From Sphingomonas sp. (GTDB lineage: Bacteria; Pseudomonadota; Alphaproteobacteria; Sphingomonadales; Sphingomonadaceae): DNA of 37,634 bases. The stretch is from contig NZ_JACDDV010000016.1 of NCBI RefSeq assembly GCF_013816785.1, positions 1 to 37,634 on the forward strand, written 5' to 3'. How positions within the stretch are numbered: the first letter of the stretch is position 1; the number at the start of each line of letters is the position of its first letter. The translations under genes were made by a program, and so were the position numbers. The notes below the pieces were generated by a model. That model had not been told where the DNA came from. It did not search any database and saw nothing but the letters and a program-made list of their open reading frames with translations. Shown in pieces: positions 5,932-20,366 of this stretch.

Positions 5932-8278
5932 GGCTCGCACCCAGTTTCTCGGCGGCCGCGACGATCTGTGCCGACAGCTCGCCAATCTCCGCATCGGTAA
6001 AGCTTTTCTCGCCCGGCTGCATCGTGACTTCGACGGCCAGGCTGAGCGCCTCGCCGTCGGGGCGGTAACGGTCGAAGATTCGCGCGGCGATGATCGCCGT
6101 CTCATCGACCCCCCGTATCGCACGGACCAGCGTGTCGGCGGCCAGCGTATCGGGCACGACGAACGCAAAGTCGCGTGCCACGGGCTGGAGCAGTGCGGGG
6201 GCGTAAGCGGGGCGAGCGCGCGCGCCGAGGCGGGCAGGAGGTATGGCGTCGAGAAAGAGCTCGGCCACCACCGTTCCCGCCGGCGCGTCGAGCGCCTTCG
6301 CGATACGCGGGTGAAGTTCTCCAAATGCAGCGAGGATCGTCTTGGCTCCGAGCCCGAGCTTGGCCGAGCGGCCGGGATGCCAGGTCGGCCCCGCGTCCAT
6401 CAGCAACTGCAGATTTGCAATTGGCGCCCCCGCGGCGTCGAGCAAGGCGAGCACCTCGGCCTTGGCATCGAACGCGCTGAAGCCCTGCCCCTTGCCCGAC
6501 TGCCAGTGGCGCGGATTGCGCTCGCCGGCCAGCAACAGGCCGACGGTCGGGCGCTCGCCCTCGGCCAGGTAACGGCGGCCGACCTCGAACAGGCGGATGG
6601 TGATTGCGCCGCGATCGGCGTTGCGCCGCGCGGCGGCGATCAGGCCGGGCAGCATCGACGGCCGCATCGCCTTCATCTCCTCGCTGATCGGGTTGGCGAG
6701 CATGTGGGGGGCGCCGCCGAAGTGCGCCGCTTCGTCCTCGCCGATAAAACTCCAAGTGACCGCCTCGTCCAGTCCGCGCGCGACCGCCGCGCGGCGAATG
6801 CGCCGCTCGACCTTCTGGGATCGCGTCGCGGTGGGCTTGGCCACTCCATTCGCGCGCGATAATGGCGTCGAAGGAATCGCATCATAGCCGACGATACGCG
6901 TGACTTCCTCGACCAGGTCAGCAGGTCCGTCGATGTCGCGCCGCCACGACGGGGCGACCACCTCTCCTCCGTCGACGATAAAACCGAGCCGTTCGAGAAT
7001 CGCCGTCTGTTCCGCTGCCGGTACATCGATTCCGCCCAACGCCAGCGTCCGCGCCGGATTGAAGGCTACGCGCTTGGCCCCGACCGGCGGCTCGCCGGCG
7101 CGGGTCACCCGGCTCGCTTCGCCGCCGCAAATGTCGAGAATCAGGCCCGTCAGCACCGCAAGCCCATCGTCCAGGAAGGTGGGATCGACACCGCGCTCGA
7201 AGCGGCTGCGCGCGTCGCTCGTCAGTCCGAGCTTCTGGCCGGTCCGGGCAATCCGTTCGGGCGTGAAATAGGCAACTTCGAGCAGCACCTCGGTCGTCGC
7301 CGGCGACATGCCCGAATGCTCGCCGCCCATGATCCCGCCAATGTCGTGGACGCCGTTGTCGTCGGCGATCACCGTCATCTCCGACGTCAGCGAATATTGC
7401 TTCCCGTTGAGCGCAACGACGGTCTCGCCGTCGTAGGCGCGGCGCCCGACGACCGCGCCCGACAGCGCCTTGACGTCATAAGCATGGCTCGGCCGGCCAA
7501 GATCGAACATGACATAGTTGGTGATGTCGATCAGCGCCGAGATCGGCCGCTGACCCGCCGCCTTCAACCGCCGCTGCATCCACTCGGGCGACGCGCCATT
7601 GGTCAGACCGCGCACGGTGCGACCGTGAAAAGCCGGGCAGCCGTCGGGATCCTCAATGCGGATCTCGACCGGGTTGTCGAAACTGCCCTCGATGTTCGGC
7701 ACGTCGAGCGGCTTCAGTGTGCCCAGCCCTGTGGCGGCGAGATCGCGGGCGATGCCACGCACGCCCATGCAATCCTGGCGGTTCGGAGTGACCGCGACGT
7801 CGAAAACCGCGTCGTCCAGACCGGCATATTCGGCAAAGCTGGATCCGACCGGCGCCTCGGATGGAAGCTCGACAATCCCGTCATGGTCGTCGCCCAACTC
7901 GAGCTCGCGCGAGGAACACATCATACCGTTTGATTCGACGCCACGGATCGTCGCTTTTTTGAGCGTAATTTCGCTGCCGGGCACATAGGTTCCCGGGCCA
8001 CCAAACACCCCGACTAGGCCGGCGCGGGCGTTAGGCGCGCCGCAGACGACCTGCAACGGCTCGCCGTCACCGGTGTCGACGGTCAGCACCTGAAGCTTGT
8101 CCGCCTGCGGATGGCGCTCGGCGGTCAGCACCCTGGCGATCTTGAACGGCTTAAGCGCATCGGCCGGATTGGCGACGCCTTCTACCTCCAGGCCGATGCG
8201 GGTCAGCGCTTCGGCGATGGTCCCCGCGTCGGCATCGGTGTCGAGGTGGGCTTTGAGCCAGCCAAGCGAGAACTTCAT
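5921..8278 (-). CDS. pheT: Phenylalanine--tRNA ligase beta subunit
   Basis: This is the beta subunit of the alpha2-beta2 cytoplasmic PheRS. It carries the tRNA-binding, editing and anticodon-recognition domains. The 785-residue product starts [14 protein letters not shown], followed by an EMAP-like tRNA-binding domain (~40-150, [27 protein letters not shown]). Next come B3/B4 editing, B5, and a C-terminal FDX-ACB domain (~690-785, [13 protein letters not shown]). The length is normal (~790). The start codon overlaps the pheS stop (ATGA), so translation is coupled. It converges with plsC. Confidence 0.97.
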
Positions 8279-16692: not shown

Positions 16693-17013
16693 ATGGCCAT
16701 TCTTCCCCCCTCGGTCGGCCCGCGCGCCGCGCTCGCCGATCTGTTCGCCTTCATGCGCCAGCGCAGCCGCGAGCAGGTGCTCGGCCTGATCATGGCGGTC
16801 CTGGTGACGACCATCATCCTGATCATTTTCATCGTCGACGCGAAGGTCAATACGGCGCCTCCGCCGCGCGTGGTCTATATCGAAAGTTATGGGCCTGACC
16901 GGACCGATGCCGACATCATCGCCGACCAGAAGGAGGCGTCGGAAAGGAAGCACCAGGCCGCGGAAGCCAAAAAGGCCGAGTTCCGCAAACTGGAAAAGCA
17001 GCTCGGACTGTGA
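16693..17013 (+). CDS. Small single-pass membrane protein coupled to ribD
   Basis: The 106-residue product has a transmembrane helix at ~30-50 (LIMAVLVTTIILIIFIV). A Lys/Glu/Ala-rich helical tail follows (~70-106, QKEASERKHQAAEAKKAEFRKLEKQ), likely a coiled coil. I do not recognise a named family. The first ~28 residues look cytoplasmic, and the tail would be periplasmic if the helix is inserted N-in. Its stop overlaps the ribD start (GTGA), so it is translationally coupled to riboflavin synthesis. A TAAATA hexamer ends 7 bases before the ATG and no Shine-Dalgarno is seen. It is probably a conserved gene given the coupling; its role is unknown. Confidence 0.7.
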   Translation: MAILPPSVGPRAALADLFAFMRQRSREQVLGLIMAVLVTTIILIIFIVDAKVNTAPPPRVVYIESYGPDRTDADIIADQKEASERKHQAAEAKKAEFRKLEKQLGL

Positions 17014-18011
17014 GCGCCAAGGCCGGCGGCCCCGACCGGCACTGGATGGCCGAAGCGGTCCGGCTCGGCGGAAGTGTGCGCGGCCGCACCGCTCCCAATC
17101 CTAACGTCGGCTGCGTGATCGTGTCGGGCGGGAGGATCGTCGGCCAAGGCGCAACCGCGCCCGGCGGAAGGCCCCATGCGGAAGCCGTTGCGCTGGAGGC
17201 TGCGGGTGAAGCCGCACGCGGCGCTACCCTCTACGCCACGCTCGAACCCTGCGCGCATCCAAGCGACCGCGGCCCGACTTGCGCTGAACTGATCCCCGAG
17301 GCTGGCGTCACTCGCGTCGTGATCGGCCTGCGCGATCCCGACCCGCGCACCGCCGGTGAGGGGATCGCCATGCTGCGCGATGCCGGGATCGCGATCGATG
17401 TCCTCGACGAACCCGCCGCCCGCGCCAGCATGTCGGGCTATCTCATGCGCCTCACCGACGGCCGCCCGCGCATCACGCTCAAGCTGGCCCTGTCGATCGA
17501 CGGCAAGATTGCCCTTCCCTCGGGCGAATCCAGGTGGATCACCGGTGAGGATGCTCGCGCCCACGTCCATCTGGAGCGCGCCCATAGCGACATGATCCTG
17601 GTCGGCCGCGGCACCTATCTGGCGGATTCGCCCAAGCTCGATGTTCGCCTTCCGGGCCTCGAAGACTGGTCTCCGCGCCGTGCGCTGCTGACTCGCGGTG
17701 AGGCGGTCGAAGGGTGGGAAAAACTGTCGTCACCGCAGGATGTCTACCGGCTTCATGACGTCAACGACCTGCTGGTCGAGGGCGGGTCGGCCACTGCCAC
17801 CGCCTTCCTTGCCGCCGATCTGGTCGACCGCATTCTCATCTATCGCGCCCCGATCCTGGTCGGCGAGGGGAGAAACAGCATCGGCTATATCGGCCTCGAC
17901 TTGATCGCCGACGCCCACGGCCGCTGGCGCGCATCCGACGCCGCCCACCTTGGCATCGACCGGCTCGAAGTTTACGAGCGCGTGCGGAGCGAGAGCGGGG
18001 ACGAAGCCTAA
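17010..18011 (+). CDS. ribD: Bifunctional riboflavin deaminase/reductase RibD
   Basis: It catalyses the second and third steps of riboflavin synthesis: deamination of the diaminopyrimidine, then NADPH reduction of the ribosyl chain. The 333-residue product has a deaminase domain (~10-145). Its zinc site is HAE in GRPHAEAVALEAAG with the cysteines of TLEPCAHPSDRGPTCAEL. The reductase domain (~148-333) contains KLALSIDGKIA, SDMILVGRGTYLADSP and VEGGSATATAFL. It is slightly shorter than the ~365-residue E. coli enzyme. Start GTG 17010 overlaps the preceding stop (GTGA), and its stop overlaps the ribE start (TAATG). Confidence 0.95.
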   Translation: MSAKAGGPDRHWMAEAVRLGGSVRGRTAPNPNVGCVIVSGGRIVGQGATAPGGRPHAEAVALEAAGEAARGATLYATLEPCAHPSDRGPTCAELIPEAGVTRVVIGLRDPDPRTAGEGIAMLRDAGIAIDVLDEPAARASMSGYLMRLTDGRPRITLKLALSIDGKIALPSGESRWITGEDARAHVHLERAHSDMILVGRGTYLADSPKLDVRLPGLEDWSPRRALLTRGEAVEGWEKLSSPQDVYRLHDVNDLLVEGGSATATAFLAADLVDRILIYRAPILVGEGRNSIGYIGLDLIADAHGRWRASDAAHLGIDRLEVYERVRSESGDEA

Positions 18012-18613
18012 TGTTTACCGGGATCATCACCGATATCGGCACCGTTCGCTCCGCCGAGCAACGCGGGGACCTGCGCCTCGTCATCGGCTCGGCTTATGAC
18101 ATGGCGACGGTCGACCTTGGGGCTTCGATCGCCTGCTCGGGCGCCTGCCTGACGGTGGTCGACAAGGGAGCTGACTGGTTCGCAGTCGACCTCAGCAGCG
18201 AAAGCATCGCGCGCACCGCGCCCGGCCTGTGGGCGCCGGGCAGCCGCCTCAATCTCGAACGAGCGCTGCGCGTCGGCGACGAGCTTGGCGGCCATATCGT
18301 CACCGGCCATGTCGACACGGTCGCGACCGTCGCTTCGGCGATCGAGGTCGGCGGAAGCTGGGCGTTGGCGATTGACGCCCCCCGCGCGTTCGGCGGAGCA
18401 ATCGCCCCGAAGGGGTCGATCACGCTCGATGGCGTTTCGCTGACCGTCAACACCGTTGAGGACAAGCACGACGTGACCCGCTTCACCGTCAACATCATCC
18501 CCCACACCGCCGATCACACCACATTGGGAGTCCTCACTGCCGGGCGCGGTCTGAACCTCGAAATCGACGTGCTCGCGCGCTATCTGCAGCGCATGGCCGA
18601 CGCGCGAATGTGA
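18011..18613 (+). CDS. ribE: Riboflavin synthase (alpha subunit)
   Basis: It performs the dismutation of two 6,7-dimethyl-8-ribityllumazine molecules to riboflavin. The 200-residue product has the tandem lumazine-binding barrels: the first opens MFTGIITDIGTV and holds SIACSGACLTVVDKG, the second holds GGHIVTGHVDTVATV and KGSITLDGVSLTVNTV. The length is normal. It starts one base inside the ribD stop. Its own stop forms a GTGA overlap with a GTG at 18610 that is in frame with ribB, but ribB more likely starts at 18658. Confidence 0.95.
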   Translation: MFTGIITDIGTVRSAEQRGDLRLVIGSAYDMATVDLGASIACSGACLTVVDKGADWFAVDLSSESIARTAPGLWAPGSRLNLERALRVGDELGGHIVTGHVDTVATVASAIEVGGSWALAIDAPRAFGGAIAPKGSITLDGVSLTVNTVEDKHDVTRFTVNIIPHTADHTTLGVLTAGRGLNLEIDVLARYLQRMADARM

Positions 18614-18619
18614 AAACCT

Positions 18620-18649
18620 TTGCTCGAATATCACATTCCCGTGTGATAT
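18620..18649 (+). promoter_or_regulatory. Internal promoter with palindromic operator before ribB
   Basis: TTGCTC (18620-18625), 18 bases, TGATAT (18644-18649), then 8 bases to ATG 18658. The spacer and -10 are covered by a perfect inverted repeat ATATCACA-N6-TGTGATAT (18628-18649). This is a classical repressor position, and the downstream gene product begins with a helix-turn-helix. The repeat is seen directly; promoter activity and the bound protein are inferred. Confidence 0.6.
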
Positions 18650-18657
18650 CGGGAAGT

Positions 18658-19944
18658 ATGTCCGCCAATCTCATCGACCGAATCACATTGCTGGTGGAAA
18701 CCGGCGAGGCCAGCCGCAGCGGCCTAGCCCGCGCTGCCGGCCTCCACCCCAACAGCTTGCGCAAGCTTGGCGCCTCCGACTGGAACCCCACCGCGGACAC
18801 GCTCGGGCGGCTCGAGAAATTGCTCGACGGTGGGGTGCAAGAGCTGCTGGTCGGCACGCAGGCGATCATCGACGAGGCGCGCAACGGGCGGATGTTCATC
18901 CTGGTCGACGACGACGACCGCGAGAATGAGGGCGACCTCATCATCCCGGCCCAGATGGCGACCCCCGACGCGATCAACTTCATGGCCCGTCATGGCCGCG
19001 GCCTGATCTGCCTCGCGCTCGGCAAGGATCGGGTCGACCAGCTCGGCCTGCAGCCGATGGCGCTGATCAACGGCACCCAGCTGGAAACCGCTTTCACCGT
19101 CTCGATCGAGGCGCGCCAAGGGGTCACCACAGGTATTTCCGCCGCCGACCGCGCACGAACCATATCGGTGGCGATCGATGCCTCGAATGGGCCTGAGGCG
19201 ATCGTCTCGCCAGGCCATATTTTCCCCTTGGCGGCGCGCCCCGGCGGGGTACTGGTCCGGGCCGGCCATACCGAGGCGGCGGTCGATGTCGCGCGGCTCG
19301 CCGGCCTCAACCCTTCGGGCGTGATCTGCGAGATCATGCGGGAGGACGGCACCATGGCCCGGCTCGACGATCTGATGGAGTTCGCGCGTGCCCACAGCCT
19401 CAAGATCGGCACCATCCGCGATCTCATCGCCTACCGCCTCAAGAAAGATCATATGGTCGAGCGCGTTGCCGAAACGCGATTTGTAGCGCGGTCGGGCGCA
19501 ACCTGGACCGCACAGGTGTTCCGCGACAGTGCGAGCGGCGAGGAGCAGCTGGCGCTGGTTCATGGCGCGATCGATCCGTCGCGGCCGACGCTGGTCAGGA
19601 TGCATTCGATCGATCTCTTCGCCGACCTGCTCGGTGAAGCCAGCCCGCGCGCTGGGCTGCTCGACGGGGCGATGGCGATGATCGAGGCCGAGGGCGCAGG
19701 GGTGATCGTCGCGCTTCACGCTGCCGCGCCCGGTTCGCTGAGCCGCGCCACCGATCTCCGCTCGGGCAAGGGCGGCGAGGCGACGGCGGCGCTGCGCGGA
19801 TACGGCATCGGCGCGCAGATTCTCGCCGCGCTCGGCATCCACGACATGATCCTGCTGTCCAACACTCGCCACGCCCCAGTTGGCCTCAGCGCCTATGGTC
19901 TCGCAATTGTCGAGGAACGCTGCATCGCCAGTTGTGAGGATTGA
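18658..19944 (+). CDS. ribB: HTH-fused 3,4-dihydroxy-2-butanone-4-phosphate synthase with degenerate GCH II domain (RibBX-like)
   Basis: It converts ribulose 5-phosphate to the C4 unit of riboflavin. The 428-residue product has three parts. Residues ~1-57 are an XRE-like helix-turn-helix ([20 protein letters not shown], then [15 protein letters not shown]). Residues ~66-270 form the synthase, with [12 protein letters not shown] (84-95) and the conserved [14 protein letters not shown]. Residues ~275-428 resemble GTP cyclohydrolase II but lack the zinc cysteines: the segment HSECLTGDVFGS-RCDCG of active enzymes reads [18 protein letters not shown], so GTP cyclohydrolase activity is not expected. 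A separate ribA must lie elsewhere. Start ATG 18658 is preferred over GTG 18610 because the HTH begins right after it. The operator-like palindrome upstream suggests autoregulation. Confidence 0.93.
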
Positions 19945-19946
19945 GG

Positions 19947-20366
19947 ATGGCCCACCTCCTCATCGTCGAAGCGCGCTTCTATGCTCATTTGAATGACATG
20001 CTGCTCGCCGGCGCTCGCCGCGCGATCGAGGCCGCAGGGCACAGTCATGAGACGATCACGGTCCCCGGCGCGCTCGAATTGCCCGGCGCGATCGCGCTCG
20101 CGGCAGACAGCGGGCGGTTCGAGGCCTTTGTCGCGCTCGGCGTCGTAATTCGCGGTGAGACCTGGCATTTCGAAATCGTCGCCGGCGAAAGCGCGCGCGG
20201 ATTGATGGCGCTCACTCTGGACGGAATCCCCGTCGGAAACGGCATTTTGACGGTCCAGAACGAAGCTCAGGCGATCGTTCGCGCGGACCCTGCGCAAAAT
20301 GACAAGGGCGGTGGCGCGGCCGAGGCAGCGCTGGCGCTGCTTGCGCTCAAATCGACCTTCAGCTGA
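19947..20366 (+). CDS. ribH: 6,7-dimethyl-8-ribityllumazine synthase
   Basis: It condenses the RibB and RibD products to the lumazine precursor of riboflavin. The 139-residue product shows [11 protein letters not shown] (the strand and helix at the active site), [23 protein letters not shown] with the catalytic His, and [12 protein letters not shown]. The length is at the short end of the family. Start ATG 19947 is 2 bases after the ribB stop, with GAGG directly before it and GTGAGG further upstream. It is the last gene of the riboflavin set and converges with the SOUL gene (8-bp overlap). Confidence 0.95.

Follow-up and report, generated by a model that had tools for sequence, protein, structure and literature searches.

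The riboflavin locus and its enzyme

The window analysed here, a stretch of 37,634 nt from a Sphingomonas sp. contig, carries the riboflavin genes ribD, ribE, ribBX and ribH in that order, of which ribBX encodes a DHBP synthase followed by a GCHII-like X domain and preceded by a helix-turn-helix (HTH)-like region (Table 1). The catalytic motifs of the DHBP synthase domain, including HTEA, align with those of E. coli RibB (1g57) and of RibBX (6mnz). The segment of the X domain that matches the cysteine-bearing part of E. coli GCHII (2bz0), whose cysteines are the zinc ligands, contains no Cys, and the best fold matches in Foldseek are M. tuberculosis RibA2 (4i14) and then A. baumannii RibBX (6mnz). 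With a DHBP synthase, a GCHII-like domain lacking the cysteines of that segment and fold matches to these two structures, the protein is therefore RibBX-like. A second GCHII-like match lies elsewhere in the same genome (G000:C64:30055-30486, 40% identity), in a 384-aa frame, and is a candidate for the separate GTP cyclohydrolase II expected beside a RibBX. Among 30 genus loci, ribH follows ribBX in all 30, and ribD and ribE both precede it in 26 and are both missing from that position in four.

Table 1. Features of the ribBX locus, in coordinates of the window
Feature	Position	Strand	Basis and remarks
ribD, upstream neighbour	17010..18011	+	PF01872, PF00383
ribE (riboflavin synthase), upstream neighbour	18011..18613	+	PF00677
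Possible upstream half-site AATGTGAA	18607..18614	+	Weak; right arm of possible second operator O2; overlaps ribE stop codon
Candidate -35, TTGCTC	18620..18625	+	Weak; consensus scan finds no promoter
Putative operator O1	18628..18649		Perfect ATATCACA-N6-TGTGATAT; conserved core ATCACATNNNNATGTGAT at 18630-18647; counterparts in HTH-positive relatives
Candidate -10, TGATAT	18644..18649	+	Inside right arm; position only, poor consensus
HTH-RibBX gene, 428 codons	18658..19944	+	ORF, Pfam, conservation, AlphaFold2, Foldseek
Cro/C1-like HTH, residues 1-57	18658..18828	+	Conservation, weak Pfam matches, AlphaFold2 helices
DHBP synthase domain, residues 69-259	18862..19434	+	PF00926 E=5e-82; aligned to 6mnz, 1g57; HTEA motif
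X domain, GCHII-like, residues 268-420	19459..19917	+	PF00925; aligned to 2bz0; Foldseek 4i14, 6mnz
ribH (lumazine synthase)	19947..20366	+	PF00885; predicted co-regulated

The original prediction held that the enzyme begins with an XRE-like HTH of about 57 residues, and this stands as regards conservation, predicted helices and weak profile matches, if not as a Pfam match at gathering score. No Pfam model reaches its cut-off over the N-terminal ~57 residues of the window's protein, where HTH_3 scores 13.2 bits against a gathering score of 23 and, at E=0.095, is outranked by an unrelated model at 0.059. In relatives, matches below cut-off were found to HTH_3 in 27 of 35 (best 2e-4) and to HTH_26 likewise in 27 of 35 (best 6e-4). 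With a mean pLDDT of 74.9, the AlphaFold2 model of the full-length protein places N-terminal helices at residues 2-15, 20-26, 31-34 and 46-57, and the residues that are invariant across 42 full-length relatives (A24, G28, L29, H30, N32, L34, R35, W42, N43, P44, T48, L49 and L52) take in the predicted recognition helix. Sequence searches of the PDB for relatives of the HTH turned up none that convinces. Conservation and model together thus point to an HTH-like domain fused to the N-terminus of the pathway enzyme RibBX, for which DNA binding is predicted.

The palindrome before ribBX

Directly upstream of ribBX lies a perfect inverted repeat made up of ATATCACA (18628-18635), the spacer TTCCCG (18636-18641) and TGTGATAT (18642-18649), 8 nt from the ATG at 18658. 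The original prediction had this palindrome, the TTGCTC and TGATAT that flank it (18620-18625 and 18644-18649) and its distance to the ATG exact to the base. As a promoter, TTGCTC and TGATAT are a poor match, and a consensus promoter scan of the window finds none there. As regards chance, the window contains 34 perfect 8-bp inverted repeats with loops of 0-12, against a mean of 21.9 in ten surrogates, with five of loop 6 (surrogates 1.9), and 51 of 4000 surrogate stretches of 44 nt hold a repeat as good as this one. Because equally good repeats occur in surrogates, the palindrome taken alone is weak evidence against a chance origin; it is the comparison across genomes, given below, that makes the case strong. 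Within its own 2.28-Mb genome the 22-bp pattern occurs, at up to three mismatches, in a single place, which is this repeat.

The surroundings of the site vary among relatives. Counted from the palindrome, a TTG starts at position -6 or -5 at 30 of 48 family loci, at 5 of 26 genus loci the same holds, and in the window it starts at -10. Between the palindrome and the assigned start lie 2 to 58 nt, most commonly 11 nt (30 of 80 family loci, 15 of 30 genus loci). At 26 of 110 loci another site scores 6 bits or more, and in 20 of these 26 it is spaced by 30-33 bp; the logo of the genus has a AATGTGAT-like enrichment at -23 to -16, and nothing above 6 bits is seen at the upstream position in the window. 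By eye, a different palindrome, GGAACA-N4-TGTTCC, can be seen just 5' of the operator in three genus members (L019, L024 and L025). An assignment of the main site to the CRP/FNR type seems unlikely, its half-sites being opposite in direction to the CRP consensus.

The original prediction had also considered that translation might begin at GTG 18610. At 81 of 110 HTH-positive loci the frame is closed by a stop inside the palindrome or 3' of it, which supports ATG 18658 and argues against GTG 18610 as a conserved start; the test decides for these 81 and not for the other 29, and in the window the frame is open back to the GTG. As a general start, therefore, the GTG can be set aside.

Co-occurrence of the HTH and the palindrome

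The HTH (61 aa) is present in 239 of 298 family genomes and in 75 of 96 genera, and of the 59 family genomes that gave no HTH match, 50 encode a RibBX (E ≤ 1e-30). That the palindrome should accompany the HTH had been set beforehand as the test of the proposal, for which upstream regions were scored with ATCACATNNNNATGTGAT, the same pattern reversed serving as control. The outcome is clear-cut: at up to four of 14 mismatches within 200 nt of the start, the site is present in all 193 testable HTH-positive genomes, and at up to three in 191 of them, whereas none of 47 HTH-negative family genomes examined has it at up to three. In other words, HTH-positive genomes carry a conserved operator-like site at genes of the pathway. 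Since the residues of the predicted recognition helix are invariant and the site is conserved, the putative reader and its site appear to fit together.

These figures were assembled from several samples. The first HTH-positive set comprised 30 of the 71 genus genomes and the 80 family genomes that top the HTH ranking, and its 110 loci have 33, 44, 22, 10 and 1 sites at zero to four mismatches respectively (control 4-8, 200 nt); the corresponding 30 HTH-negative loci have 6-7 mismatches (control 6-8, 200 nt). A PWM built from the HTH-positive sites gives these a minimum of 7.7 bits and the 30 HTH-negative loci a maximum of -9.6 bits. As the 80 family genomes came from the top of the ranking, others of lower rank or newly listed were added. 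This second set of 82, which consists of 80 such loci together with L360 and L363 and shares no locus with the first, has 21, 22, 26, 12 and 1 sites at zero to four mismatches (control 5-8); three of its genomes (G472, G474 and G477) come from the order search. Among 20 further genomes, 17 are HTH-negative, with 4-7 mismatches in a 420-nt stretch (control 5-8), and one, L212, is HTH-positive, its perfect site lying 12 nt upstream of where the HTH begins. At L212 (G341) the RibBX matches continue in a second frame at about 1761-1800, a frameshift or an assembly error. In all, the HTH-positive genomes examined outside the genus are 160 of the 233 in the family sample. On the other side, 49 of the 50 RibBX genomes without an HTH match were examined, the fragmented G267 being left out; 47 of these are HTH-negative, and two, L197 and L200, are HTH-positive with the upstream region cut off by a contig end, and stand outside the testable count.

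The two HTH-positive loci that reach four mismatches at best are L119 and L360. Named contigs give a similar division: among the best 80 of at least 591 matches, 13 are HTH-positive, 12 with zero to two mismatches and one with four, and 67 are HTH-negative, with 4-8 mismatches in 400 nt (control 5-8). The HTH-positive ones in these 80 are from Sphingomonas daechungensis, Blastomonas, Novosphingobium, Sphingopyxis, Porphyrobacter, Allopontixanthobacter, Pelagerythrobacter and MAGs, and the HTH-negative ones include Sphingomonas jeddahensis, S. lenta and S. leidyi. The named contigs overlap with the family genomes and are thus not independent of them, since L283 (Allopontixanthobacter sediminis), the contig with four mismatches, is identical to L360 over 5501 bp. 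This locus also has a shorter palindrome, CACACATTAAAATGTGTA.

A ribE match within 700 nt upstream is absent from 45 of 110 HTH-positive loci and present at 29 of 30 HTH-negative loci, and all 45 loci in which ribE was not detected keep the site at up to three mismatches (one of them, L009, is a miss of the stricter ribE criterion that emerges in the longer genus loci). On this comparison of loci the palindrome belongs to ribBX, persisting where an upstream ribE is not found.

Gains and losses in the family

The history of the fusion was followed on a quick FastTree tree of 146 RibBX domains taken without the HTH part, for which the outgroup is unclean and from which four rows (L109, L154, L212 and L213) were left off as too short. 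The HTH state changes seven times on this tree, at least five of these changes being forced by supported branches. Of the 144 rows scorable for both, 143 show HTH and palindrome (up to three mismatches, 400 nt) in agreement and one, L119, does not; L197 and L200 are unscorable for the palindrome. Five independent pairs are available on supported branches, and in these the palindrome goes the same way as the HTH in 4.9 (mean of 200 random pairings) and the opposite way in none; the median p of a sign test is 0.0625, five pairs being unable to pass 0.05 in any case. As judged from this tree, the link between HTH and palindrome is not simple inheritance, in that the site follows the HTH through at least five supported gains or losses.

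FMN riboswitches

The original prediction had seen no FMN riboswitch in the window, and indeed no Rfam family reaches its gathering score there. Across the family, the FMN riboswitch RF00050 stays below cut-off in 297 of 298 genomes, a search whose filters lose some weak matches, with one genome (G232) above cut-off and a second matching below it. As a rule HTH-negative genomes have neither an FMN riboswitch nor the HTH and palindrome, so that the absence of the riboswitch is by itself no pointer to the HTH.

In G232, ribD, ribE, ribBX and ribH lie in one row behind the FMN riboswitch (L358:1251-4728). These genes are divergent, with 36-48% identity to those of the window, and neither HTH nor palindrome was found within 6.7 kb of the operon. 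A congener, G078, has an HTH-RibBX with a perfect site. We read G232 as a case in which the protein circuit was replaced by a riboswitch operon, the direction of the exchange and its donor being inferred. The same contig has a match to the sul1 RNA at 6367-6422 (-).

Other sites and relatives of the HTH

At up to one mismatch, sites occur somewhere in 161 of the 298 family genomes, compared with 10 for the reversed control (our own count of the table). All sites at this threshold were searched for again in 22 genomes, namely 16 with several sites, five without an HTH match, and G341. In the five without an HTH match (G075, G137, G232, G273 and G352) the single site lies elsewhere than at ribBX; no RibBX was found in G137. 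In G087 two tandem pairs of ATCACAT-like palindromes, 31 bp apart within the pair, are seen at G087:C1:215371-215419 (L193) and G087:C1:218150-218198, the first of them among small ORFs with no recognised rib gene, where another regulator may be at work.

Beyond the family, the HTH has matches in 6 of 42 genomes from other families of the order, none of which is taken for a RibB: the strong matches are the HTH-CoaBC proteins of G391 and G427 and a 94-residue frame in G373, and the rest are weak. At class level, 8 of 337 genomes match at 1e-4, four of these being in the window's own family, in a search that scored up to 19 candidates per genome and may have missed some. The related HTH at the N-terminus of CoaBC (Pfam DFP, Flavoprotein) occurs in 2 of 29 genomes of another family of the order, at L230:202-1677 (-) and L232:193-1677 (-); upstream of the gene, L232 has two copies of ATCACAAAT and L230 nothing alike. 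Two short frames, L244 (78 residues; G805, class) and L231:1417-1701 (-) (94 residues; G373, order), reach 1.9e-10 and 3.2e-13 respectively against the profile of the HTH and are possible stand-alone relatives.

Proposed mechanism and its alternatives

Taken together, the comparative evidence suggests that HTH-RibBX is a DHBP synthase with its own operator-binding domain, which binds its own promoter and represses ribBX-ribH, and we would put the probability of this reading at about 0.8. The co-occurrence of fusion and site implies that the enzyme probably controls its own production, which supports the original prediction of an autorepressor of ribB-ribH. DHBP synthase is a dimer, and the dimer would present two HTHs to the palindrome, in a geometry that we infer; from the centre of the half-site TCACA to that of TGTGA it is 11 bp, or one helical turn. 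From the spacing of TTG and ATG, the operator would sit within the promoter spacer with the start of the transcript near the ATG, such that binding would be expected to keep RNA polymerase out and reduce the transcription of ribBX-ribH. In some relatives the second site, some 30-33 bp or three turns upstream, may add cooperativity. More speculatively, binding could be tuned by substrate, product or flavin, perhaps via the X domain, which becomes a candidate sensor because it is reported to influence RibB activity (PMC10012899).

Three other readings of the same data deserve consideration. Were the HTH-RibBX to bind the site and activate the promoter, co-occurrence would look the same, and the distal second site of some loci would suit an activator. 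In most family loci tested, however, the proximal site lies between TTG and start, a position from which a protein on the DNA should obstruct polymerase, and activation seems to us an unlikely alternative to repression. A separate transcription factor might instead bind the palindrome, leaving the HTH of RibBX with some other role, and it may be said for this that the single site in the genome offers no wider regulon linking a regulator to its target. Yet the site tracks the HTH fusion and not RibBX itself, none of the 47 HTH-negative genomes having it at up to three mismatches, and loss of the site whenever the fusion is missing is not to be expected of a separate regulator, which makes this reading improbable.

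The palindrome could also act as an RNA hairpin, in a leader attenuator or in translational control. The centroid fold does pair the arms, read-through from ribDE would transcribe them, and with G-U pairs allowed the inner positions 6/11 and 7/10 pair in 92 and 89 of 109 sites. The bases next outward of ACA/TGT are complementary in 100 and 103 of the 109, and the outermost pair in 74. Since the inner pairs are kept to this extent, pairing alone would leave room for a role at the RNA level. The arm letters ACA/TGT, however, are invariant in all 109 sites, beyond the need of pairing; folding is no better than that of shuffled sequences (z -0.86), the minimum-energy fold leaving the arms unpaired; and the site tracks the HTH while its distance to the assigned start varies over 2-58 nt. 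In view of the fixed letters and the fold score, a hairpin is judged unlikely.

If HTH-RibBX does repress its own gene, control of vitamin B2 synthesis without FMN riboswitches would be predicted for a large family that includes Sphingomonas relatives, Novosphingobium, Sphingopyxis and Erythrobacter relatives, and the X domain of RibBX would gain a possible role as sensor. A more extended picture, put forward tentatively and with the odds against it, is that in much of the family a protein circuit takes the place that the FMN riboswitch holds in other bacteria. The enzyme would be its own sensor, in which substrate, product or flavin is read by the X domain or the active site and HTH binding at one promoter is set accordingly; the HTH could be a portable tag for autoregulation that has been attached to several cofactor enzymes, RibBX and CoaBC among them. 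Because fusion and operator have been gained or lost repeatedly, and one genome has an operon behind a riboswitch instead, the family amounts to a natural experiment on RNA versus protein regulation.

Comparison with known systems

BirA and NadR each combine a cofactor enzyme with an HTH and act as repressors of biosynthesis genes, and their ligands are known; the principle of enzyme and HTH is as here, and the cofactors that they serve are different. In RbkR the enzyme part is a riboflavin kinase and the protein is archaeal, whereas the present case is bacterial and built on DHBP synthase. In PMC10746257, RbkR is given as the archaeal riboflavin regulator and ThiR, also of archaea, as a regulator linked to thiamine phosphate synthase; ThiR is thereby tied to a vitamin enzyme, as is the HTH here, and differs in the vitamin. 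At rib operons the FMN riboswitch (RF00050) would do the same regulatory job, as an RNA aptamer where the window's candidate regulator is a protein domain.

RibBX itself is an established type. PMC10012899 describes it as DHBP synthase joined to a degenerate, GCHII-like X domain, gives an operon of ribD, ribE, ribBX and ribH in A. salmonicida, and reports that the X domain of S. oneidensis regulates RibB activity by a mechanism that it leaves unexplained. The RibBX proteins of Shewanella oneidensis, Aeromonas salmonicida and A. baumannii (6mnz, the second-ranked fold match) share the two-domain layout of the window's protein, which adds to it the N-terminal HTH; the description of the type in PMC10012899 mentions neither HTH nor operator. 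A word search of a 2025 review (PMC12542839) turned up none of the terms helix-turn-helix, RbkR, RibBX, DNA-binding and Sphingo, and no description of an HTH-fused DHBP synthase was recognised in the literature searched, which took in few subscription papers. The original prediction, which knew of no described case of this kind, accordingly survives for DHBP synthase within that literature and falls for the principle, which is familiar from the archaeal RbkR and ThiR. The joining of a vitamin enzyme to a DNA-binding domain that regulates its pathway is, on this comparison, a known principle, of which the HTH-DHBP synthase version appears to be new.
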